A DNA stretch of 64,000 nucleotides, taken from contig NZ_JATM01000003.1 in assembly GCF_002003665.1 (NCBI RefSeq), positions 186,001 to 250,000 of the forward strand, in the 5' to 3' direction. Source of the DNA: Bombella intestini. GTDB lineage: Bacteria; Pseudomonadota; Alphaproteobacteria; Acetobacterales; Acetobacteraceae. Under the pieces are notes generated by a model. That model saw only the letters and a list, made by a program, of their open reading frames with translations, was not told where the DNA came from and did no database searches. The translations under genes and the position numbers were made by a program. Below are positions 33,573-35,943 of the stretch, piece after piece. Each line of letters opens with the position of its first letter. The first letter of the stretch is position 1.

Positions 33573-33700
33573 ACGAAATGCTTGCGTATCAAGGGAATGG
33601 CTGGCATTTCAGGGGGCGTTTCACGGTGTAACAGGTGGGCCTGTCCTGTCGGCGACCGGTAGAAAGCAGGCAGAGAGACAGAAAATACAGAGGGGAAGTC

Positions 33701-35071
33701 ATGGCAGACAAGCGGATGTTTTTCGGCACTGACGGTATCCGTGGTACGGCCAATACGGCACCCATGACGGTTGAGATCGCTCAGAAGTTGGGGCAGGCGG
33801 CGGGACTTTATTTCTGCCGACAGGGAGAGACGGGGAGACAGCACCGTCATACGGTCGTTCTCGGTAAGGATACACGCCTTTCCGGTTATATGATTGAATG
33901 TGCCCTGGTCTCGGGGTTTTTGTCCGCTGGTGTGGATGTGGTGTTGCTGGGTCCTCTGCCAACCCCGGCTGTTGCTTTCCTTACACGGTCTCTGAGGGCC
34001 GATCTGGGGGTTATGATTTCAGCCTCTCATAATCCATTTACGGATAATGGGATTAAGCTGTTCGGTCCGGATGGGTTCAAGCTCTCCGATGCGGTGGAGA
34101 AAGAGATTGAGGCCCTCATGGCAGAAGACTTGAGCGGCCAGCTAGCTTCTCCTGCAGCTATAGGGCGAGCCTCTCGCCTGAATGACGCAGCCGGGCGGTA
34201 TATTGAGAGTGTTAAATCATCCTTTCCCCGTGGGTTGCGTTTGGATGGTCTGAAGATTGTCCTAGATTGTGCGCATGGCTCTGCCTATCGTGTGGCACCT
34301 GCCGCCTTGTGGGAGCTTGGGGCAGAGGTCATCACCATAGGGGCTTCGCCGGATGGTCTGAACATCAATGATGGTGTTGGCTCTACTCATCCAGAGGCTC
34401 TTTGCGAGGCGGTGCGTGCCAATAAGGCTGATTGCGGCATTGCGCTTGATGGCGATGCGGACCGTGTCCTGTTTGCTAATGAACGTGGCGAGTTGGTAGA
34501 TGGTGACCAGATACTGGCCCTTATCGCCACGCTCTGGAAGCGTATGGGATGGCTGAATGGTACCGAGATTGTAGCGACTGTTATGTCCAATATCGGGCTG
34601 GAAGAGTATCTGAAAACACAGGGGCTGAGCCTGCATCGTACAGCGGTTGGTGATCGTTACGTTGTAGAGCGTATGCGTCAAACTGGTGGCAATCTGGGCG
34701 GGGAACAGTCTGGCCACATGGTGTTGTCCGACCATGCTACAACGGGGGATGGTCTTCTGGCCGCCCTACAGGTACTGGCGGCTCTGGTAGACTCTGGCAG
34801 GCCTGCCAGTGAGCTTTGCCACCTTTTCACGCCATATCCGCAGACATTGAAGAATGTACCCTATAAGGGGACGAATCCTATGCAGAACCCGGCTCTAGGA
34901 GAGACTGTCCGCTGGGCGGAAGAGCAGCTTGCTGGGAAGGGACGTCTCGTTTTGCGGGCTAGTGGAACGGAACCTTTGATCCGTGTGATGGTGGAAGCTC
35001 GGGATGAGGCACTAGTAGCGGATGTGGTGGAGCGGGTCAGTGCTCACATCCAGCAGTTGGCAGCGCGCTAA
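33701..35071 (+). CDS. glmM: Phosphoglucosamine mutase
   Basis: A 456-residue enzyme interconverting glucosamine-6-phosphate and glucosamine-1-phosphate on the way to UDP-GlcNAc. The phosphoserine loop is [18 protein letters not shown] near residues 102-119. The metal loop is [11 protein letters not shown] near 246-256, the sugar-binding loop GGEQSGHMV near 335-343, and the phosphate loop [14 protein letters not shown] near the C-terminus. The start at 33701 ([15 protein letters not shown]) has AGGGGAAGTC upstream; 22 in-frame codons before it lack similarity. It is monocistronic between two terminators. Confidence 0.97.
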
Positions 35072-35193: not shown

Positions 35194-35943
35194 TTAGCCC
35201 GCCTGACGCATGGGGGGAGTCCCGTCAGAAAAGGTCTGCGGGGCAACATGGTTAGCACTGTTGGAGACAACGGCTGGGTCTTGCAGAATGTAGCCACGGC
35301 CCCAGACGGTCGTGATCATATGTTCAGCCCCAAAACGCTGGAGCTTACGGCGCAGCTTGCAGATGAACACATCGATGATCTTCATCTCGGGTTCATCAAT
35401 ACCGCCATAGAGGTGATTCAGGAACATATCCTTGGTAAGGACAGCACCCTTACGCAGAAGGAGCAGCTCCAGAATGGAGTATTCTTTGCTGGTCAGGTGC
35501 AGGAAGTGACCATTGACGCTGACCATCCGGCTCTCTAGGTCCAGCTCTAGCGGGCCGACACGCAGACGTGGCTCGGAGATGCCATAGGCACGGCGGGTTA
35601 GGGCCTGAATACGGGCCTGTGCCTCGTTCATGTCGAAGGGCTTCGTCACATAGTCATCAGCACCAGCGGAGAAGGCAGAAACCTTGGTGGAGGAATCCAT
35701 CCGGGCAGACAAAACCATAATAGGCGTTGCGATGCGGGAGCGCCGAAGCTGGCGGATCAGTTCTTCCCCTGGTAGGTCAGCCAAGTTCAGCTCGGTTATG
35801 AAAAGATCATAATCGTAGTGCTTGAACATGTTGAGAGCTTCATCAGCGGTTCTGACATGATCGACCGCATAAGAAGATTTTTCCAACACCTTCACCAGAT
35901 GGTTCACCGCAACGCTGTCGGTATCAGCGATGAGAATACGCAT
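35194..35943 (-). CDS. ctrA: CtrA-like response regulator with Glu at the phospho-acceptor position
   Basis: A 249-residue OmpR-type regulator. The DNA-binding half is close to CtrA, the alphaproteobacterial cell-cycle regulator: LTSKEYSILELLLLRKGAVL, KDMFLNHLYGGIDEPEMKII and FICKLRRKL, with VWGRGYIL. The receiver is altered. The phospho-acceptor, Asp51 in Caulobacter CtrA (LDLNLPD), is Glu51 here (TELNLAD), and the codon on the minus strand is a clear GAG. The upstream acidic pair Glu7-Asp8 is Asp7-Thr8; Ser79 and Lys101 are kept. The C-terminus is RQAG instead of the Ala-Ala degron. The start at 35943 has AGGGGAGTT upstream. It is probably active without phosphorylation (inference). Confidence 0.88.
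   Translation of the reverse strand: MRILIADTDSVAVNHLVKVLEKSSYAVDHVRTADEALNMFKHYDYDLFITELNLADLPGEELIRQLRRSRIATPIMVLSARMDSSTKVSAFSAGADDYVTKPFDMNEAQARIQALTRRAYGISEPRLRVGPLELDLESRMVSVNGHFLHLTSKEYSILELLLLRKGAVLTKDMFLNHLYGGIDEPEMKIIDVFICKLRRKLQRFGAEHMITTVWGRGYILQDPAVVSNSANHVAPQTFSDGTPPMRQAG

Follow-up and report, generated by a model that had tools for sequence, protein, structure and literature searches.

The ctrA gene of Bombella intestini

The window analysed here is a 64,000-nucleotide stretch of the genome of Bombella intestini, a bumble-bee symbiont and acetic acid bacterium. One of its minus-strand open reading frames encodes a 249-residue protein (MRILIADTDS...FITELNLADLPG...MVLSARM...DDYVTKPF...PMRQAG) in which a receiver domain precedes a winged-helix DNA-binding domain. 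Judged by its domains, family matches and gene order, the gene is the ortholog of ctrA and the sole copy in the genome. CtrA is a textbook phospho-controlled cell-cycle regulator, also of motility, that is essential in several Alphaproteobacteria and is activated by phosphate on one aspartate. The features of the locus, in window coordinates, are as follows.

35194..35943, minus strand: ctrA coding sequence, 249 amino acids plus stop; 97% identical to CtrA of Bombella favorum, with matches to PF00072, PF00486 and the NCBIfam CtrA model
35590..35943, minus strand: receiver domain, residues 1–118, with a degraded acidic pocket (PF00072 match over residues 3–112; residue survey)
35791..35793, minus strand: codon 51, GAG, encoding Glu where the phospho-acceptor Asp would be (translation)
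35920..35925, minus strand: codons 7–8, Asp-Thr in place of the Mg2+-binding Glu-Asp (translation; E7 and D8 are each present in 83 of 86 outgroup CtrAs)
35707..35709, minus strand: codon 79, the switch Ser/Thr position, retained as Ser (translation; residue survey)
35641..35643, minus strand: codon 101, Lys, retained here and lost in 20 of 58 core acetic-acid-bacteria CtrAs (translation; residue survey)
35278..35565, minus strand: CtrA-type winged-helix DNA-binding domain, residues 127–222, subject to very strong purifying selection (PF00486; mean dN/dS about 0.004 within Bombella)
35197..35208, minus strand: C-terminal RQAG, without the Ala-Ala ClpX degron (translation)
33635..35071, plus strand: glmM, a conserved neighbor of ctrA in acetic acid bacteria (neighborhood comparison)

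Both Pfam domains scored above their cut-offs (Response_reg, E = 2.6e-23; Trans_reg_C, E = 4.2e-20), and the top NCBIfam model was CtrA (NF045991, E = 1.1e-86), matched at 290 bits, below a curated cut-off of 350 bits that was set for Rhodobacterales. The DNA-binding domain (LTKDMFLNHLYGGIDEPEMKIIDVFICKLRRKL) is clearly CtrA-like, as a first-pass annotation of this DNA had proposed, and a purine-rich stretch (GGGGAGTTGAAATT) stands directly before the ATG start that we used. The same annotation had read Glu51 (codon GAG), Asp7-Thr8, Ser79 and Lys101 in the receiver, and the translation agrees at every one of these residues: the Asp acceptor and the acidic pair are gone, and Ser79 and Lys101 are kept. 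A Caulobacter CtrA sequence served only as an alignment guide, and no conclusion depends on it by itself. Two possible objections had also been raised, a second, canonical ctrA in the same genome and an assembly error at codon 51. A search of the genome (2,023,176 bp in 12 contigs, the largest 670,913 bp) found no second ctrA, the next best match being 37% identical, and an assembly error is in practice excluded because Glu51 recurs in many independent assemblies. The published genome of B. intestini LMG 28161T comprises 12 contigs at 299x coverage (PMC5112900).

The annotation was likewise right that the usual C-terminal Ala-Ala is missing. In Caulobacter, this ending of CtrA is used for ClpXP turnover. 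Ala-Ala was found in 8 of 8 D51 outgroup proteins, in 1 of 37 proteins from other acetic acid bacteria and in none of nine Bombella proteins, all of which end in AG.

Residue 51 and the phosphorelay across the Acetobacteraceae

The Glu51 state is not confined to this lineage; it spans most of the acetic acid bacteria examined and is not a Bombella oddity. Within the genus, B. favorum, B. mellum, B. pluederhausensis and B. apis are among the species that carry it, with either GAG or GAA as the codon, and among named genomes it is also present in Gluconobacter, Asaia, Neokomagataea, Saccharibacter, Acidomonas, Swaminathania, Tanticharoenia and Brytella, with position 8 mostly Ser, Asn or Thr. 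Other acetic acid bacteria have His, Asn or Asp at residue 51, and Ala51 (GCG or GCT) is found in Parasaccharibacter apium, B. saccharophila, Bombella sp. ESL0385 and B. dulcis; other Acetobacteraceae MAGs carry the canonical Glu7-Asp8 and Asp51. In a family sample drawn evenly from GTDB, 159 Acetobacteraceae CtrA proteins could be scored at residue 51, and 59 of them are not Asp51 (46 Glu, 5 Ala, 3 His, 3 Arg, 1 Asn and 1 Ser).

Several individual genes deserve mention. The ctrA of B. dulcis (L102; G002:C12:342754-343505), an Ala51 gene, has a frameshift near codon 95 and may be a pseudogene or reflect an assembly error, and that of Asaia platycodi (L120), from a draft assembly, is apparently frameshifted around codon 90. 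Five proteins (L311, L310, L315, L308 and L314, from G077, G230, G194, G033 and G268) form a highly divergent clade of CtrA-like proteins whose residue 51 is Arg, Ser or His; they have no acidic pair, and their genomes no relay. Two relay-bearing genomes contain a second, divergent CtrA-like paralog with a Gln-Gly pair and Asp51 retained (L305 in G030, contig C11; L307 in G076, contig C4). In Plastoroseomonas hellenica, a CtrA-like protein (L117:3001-3672) lacks the acceptor Asp (DAVVIGPSLSDMDG) and has a degraded pocket.

In this sample, the CckA–ChpT phosphorelay is missing wherever the Asp acceptor is missing. Among the 159 CtrAs, Asp51 occurred with ChpT and/or CckA in 81 cases and with neither in 19, whereas a residue other than Asp occurred with neither in 59 cases and with either in 0. 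ChpT was surveyed in the same genomes with PF10090. For CckA, the query was an Acetobacteraceae protein identified as CckA by its NCBIfam and PDB matches; the first bait served only as bait, with no conclusion depending on it by itself. Among Asp51 genomes, which often encode paralogous hybrid kinases, the cut-off of E = 1e-85 gives a less clean separation, and the best match in any non-Asp51 genome (4.4e-77, in G035) is a different type of kinase that falls short of it. In a second ChpT search, which used a family-specific profile built from seven Acetobacteraceae sequences, five positive controls scored between E = 1e-30 and 1e-61, and nothing better than 2e-9 was found in 66 relay-less genomes, where the weak matches sit in frames of histidine-kinase length (604–1203 amino acids). 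Only five phylogenetically independent pairs were available, too few for a sign test, and the association between residue 51 and the relay rests on few independent evolutionary events.

In B. intestini itself, the search for cckA and chpT that the annotation had called for found neither: ChpT was detected neither with PF10090 nor with the seven-sequence profile, and no CckA-type kinase was present, none of the 12 receiver domains in the genome lying at the C-terminus of a kinase. The annotation had argued that a wild gene fixed in the Glu state would mean a relay that is dispensable or rewired in this lineage. With neither CckA nor ChpT in the genome, the relay is dispensable there, but strict fixation does not hold, given Ala51, His, Asn and Asp in relatives. 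Contig C12 carries two adjacent kinases (L039:2224-5684, minus strand), a REC-PAS-HisKA protein (499 amino acids, with an HDFNNLL box) and a REC-HisKA protein (654 amino acids, with a degraded receiver), with no output regulator adjoining; the REC-PAS kinase was rejected as a CckA on its architecture, which has no C-terminal receiver. Two single-domain receivers lie in a che operon and match CheY best, and therefore provide no evidence for DivK or CpdR. SciP (DUF1153) stayed below the cut-off in all sampled Acetobacteraceae, relay-bearing and relay-less alike, and is therefore uninformative.

Loss of CckA and ChpT in this group has already been reported: both are often missing in Rhodospirillales while CtrA stays (Brilli et al. 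2010, PMC2877005; a 2021 survey, PMC8116508). We found no report of a natural replacement of the CtrA acceptor in this clade in the non-subscription literature that was searched.

Order of events, constraint and flagellar linkage

On a CtrA tree built without column 51, the acetic acid bacteria cluster together. Their first-branching members (G065, G140, G188, G225 and G080) have no relay and a degraded acidic pair, mostly Glu-Gly, and retain Asp51. Glu51 arises after these first branches and is followed by Ala, His, Asn or reversion to Asp, all within the relay-less group; a relay-less MAG (G090) has an apparently independent Glu51 amid Asp51 relatives. Outgroup CtrAs keep E7, D8, D51 and K101 in 83–85 of 86 rows, with 1–3 parsimony changes each, and in the core clade of acetic acid bacteria columns 7, 8, 51 and 101 change 6, 14, 9 and 8 times. 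Position 51 thus changed 9 times over 27 tree-length units in the core clade and once (in G090) over 32 units outside it. Since its 9 changes compare with a mean of 10.5 across the receiver, position 51 evolves at about the average rate, and Glu is therefore not tightly held. Ser79 (in nearly all proteins), Asp96, Asp97, Asp56 and Pro102 are retained inside the core clade.

The two halves of the protein are under different constraint. The ratio of receiver to DNA-binding-domain changes is 2.0 in the core clade versus 1.29 outside it, and dN/dS within Bombella, which is approximate because dS is high for some pairs, is about 0.06 for the receiver, about 0.004 for the DNA-binding domain and 0.37 for the tail. 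The gene is intact in 10 of 11 Bombella genomes. The ctrA gene is functional, with its value mostly in the DNA-binding half.

Where Acetobacteraceae carry the relay, ctrA is arranged divergently to the gene of a FliI-type flagellar ATPase (PF00006, T3SS_ATPase_C) and lies near cheR, cheB and chpT. The divergent fliI-ctrA pair is retained in the first-branching relay-less genomes and in Gluconobacter, Neokomagataea, Acidomonas, Tanticharoenia and Brytella, and in these five genera glmM stands on the other side of ctrA (glmM-ctrA-fliI). In Bombella, the fliI neighbor has been lost and glmM-ctrA kept. This stepwise synteny supports the orthology of CtrA and points towards a role in motility.

The intergenic region between fliI and ctrA in acetic acid bacteria contains a TTAA-N7-TTAA-like site matching at least 7 of 8 positions in 24 of 27 loci, versus 4.9 expected, and among the spacers tried at these 27 fliI-adjacent loci N7 was best, with no other exceeding 11. 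In most Gluconobacter genomes the site has a fixed place about 127 bp upstream of ctrA, where the conserved box reads TTAA-N7-TAA; alignment conservation is 0.90 in the half-sites, 0.69 in the spacer and 0.78 in the rest, a contrast equaled by 6 of 289 windows of that alignment. The fliI-ctrA pair and this conserved candidate box tie CtrA, at the level of sequence, to flagellar regulation in Gluconobacter. In B. intestini, no CtrA box was found before ctrA (best match, 6 of 8), and TTAA-N7-TTAA is not enriched in the genome (11 full sites with N7 versus 13 with N5 and 15 with N8). Because flagellin and che genes are still present in B. intestini, it may have a flagellar regulon. A second OmpR-family regulator lies on contig C8 at about 126127-127059 (L331:4128-5060, plus strand), just upstream of fliL/fliM-like genes and near a flagellin gene; its receiver is too degraded for Pfam (16.5 bits, cut-off 30.2), its top family model is CtrA, and it resembles a flagellar regulator of the FtcR/Rem type.

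Interpretations of the altered receiver

The acceptor has changed and both proteins that deliver phosphate are gone, and CtrA activity must therefore be set in another way. We favor, with a probability of roughly three in four, a model in which an ancestral acetic acid bacterium lost the relay and the receiver turned into a pseudo-receiver that works independently of phosphorylation, attached to a strongly conserved DNA-binding domain with flagellar output. In this model, the CckA–ChpT phosphorelay would have been lost in an ancestor of the group, after which the Mg2+-binding acidic pair would have degraded and Asp51 been replaced, most often by Glu. The receiver would persist as a folded platform that retains Ser79, the Asp96-Asp97 motif and Pro102, with the DNA-binding domain almost unchanged. 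CtrA would likely bind CtrA boxes without phosphorylation, its output would be set by the amount of CtrA, and it may help to drive flagellar genes. We infer that CtrA is not phosphorylated in these bacteria, that it binds constitutively and that it acts in motility.

What Glu51 itself contributes is a narrower question. The residue may be a natural phosphomimic, selected to lock CtrA in a constitutively ON state upon relay loss, a reading that we hold tentatively and at somewhat less than even odds. D51E, which the first-pass annotation had named as a laboratory substitution, indeed serves as a phosphomimetic in Caulobacter (PMC4241560) and in Rhodobacter capsulatus (PMC6363796). Of the 59 non-Asp proteins, 46 have Glu, far more than carry any other residue, and Glu51 persists in many genera; the switch residue Ser79 is retained in nearly all proteins. 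However, Glu is mutationally close to Asp, Lys101 has been lost in 20 of 58 proteins, and Ala51 occurs in P. apium, B. saccharophila, ESL0385 and B. dulcis; several core members have Asp51, and still other proteins His51 or Asn51. For these reasons, Glu51 may, but need not, make CtrA constitutively active, and in the sister Bombella species with Ala51, CtrA activity, if any, must be independent of a carboxylate, which argues against a strict requirement for a phosphomimetic carboxylate at least in that Bombella subclade. A more far-reaching history, to which we give a probability somewhat short of one-half, is that nature made the D51E allele: after relay loss Glu51 would have kept the regulon ON, and in the bee-associated lineages even Glu would have become dispensable, turning a switch into a constitutive regulator.

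It is unlikely that the pseudo-receiver has been rewired to sense a protein partner or ligand instead of phosphate. Purifying selection on the receiver (dN/dS about 0.06) and the invariance of Asp96-Asp97 and Pro102 speak for such an input, but a dimerisation role alone would account for this conservation, and in the clade ctrA has no linked gene that would make a candidate partner. Still less probable is that ctrA is in decay, its receiver drifting and the gene heading for loss: the frameshifted ctrA of B. dulcis, Ala51 in its relatives and very divergent copies in g24, g68 and g40 would fit such a course, but the very low dN/dS of the DNA-binding domain and the intact gene in 10 of 11 Bombella genomes do not. 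Continued phosphorylation of CtrA, on Glu or another residue, by a non-cognate kinase such as the contig C12 REC-PAS kinase is very improbable, since for all the CckA-like HDFNNLL core of that kinase it has no C-terminal receiver, ChpT is absent, and the Mg2+ pair and the acceptor are both degraded.

The pseudo-receiver model that we favor relates to three known systems. The B. intestini protein is orthologous to the CtrA of the CckA–ChpT–CtrA phosphorelay known from Caulobacter and other Alphaproteobacteria; the two share their domain layout and have near-identical DNA-binding domains. In the D51 Acetobacteraceae, ctrA, chpT and che/fli genes form a cluster. Unlike in that phosphorelay, B. 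intestini has neither CckA nor ChpT, and its CtrA has other residues in place of Asp51 and the Mg2+ pair and lacks the Ala-Ala degron. The substitution is identical to that of laboratory D51E alleles, at the identical residue, but it is natural, clade-wide and joined to loss of the acidic pair and the relay, has relatives with Ala, His or Asn, and is known here from sequence. Finally, the combination of an acceptor-less receiver with a working winged-helix domain resembles orphan OmpR/PhoB-family regulators with atypical (pseudo-) receivers. This one, however, descends from a master regulator whose near relatives continue to rely on phosphorylation, and the transition can therefore be traced inside one family. 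The states before loss (D51 with the relay), in between (D51 without the relay) and after loss (Glu, Ala or His) are all extant, and their coexistence makes the escape of a master regulator from its kinase testable in culturable, industrially used bacteria such as Gluconobacter.
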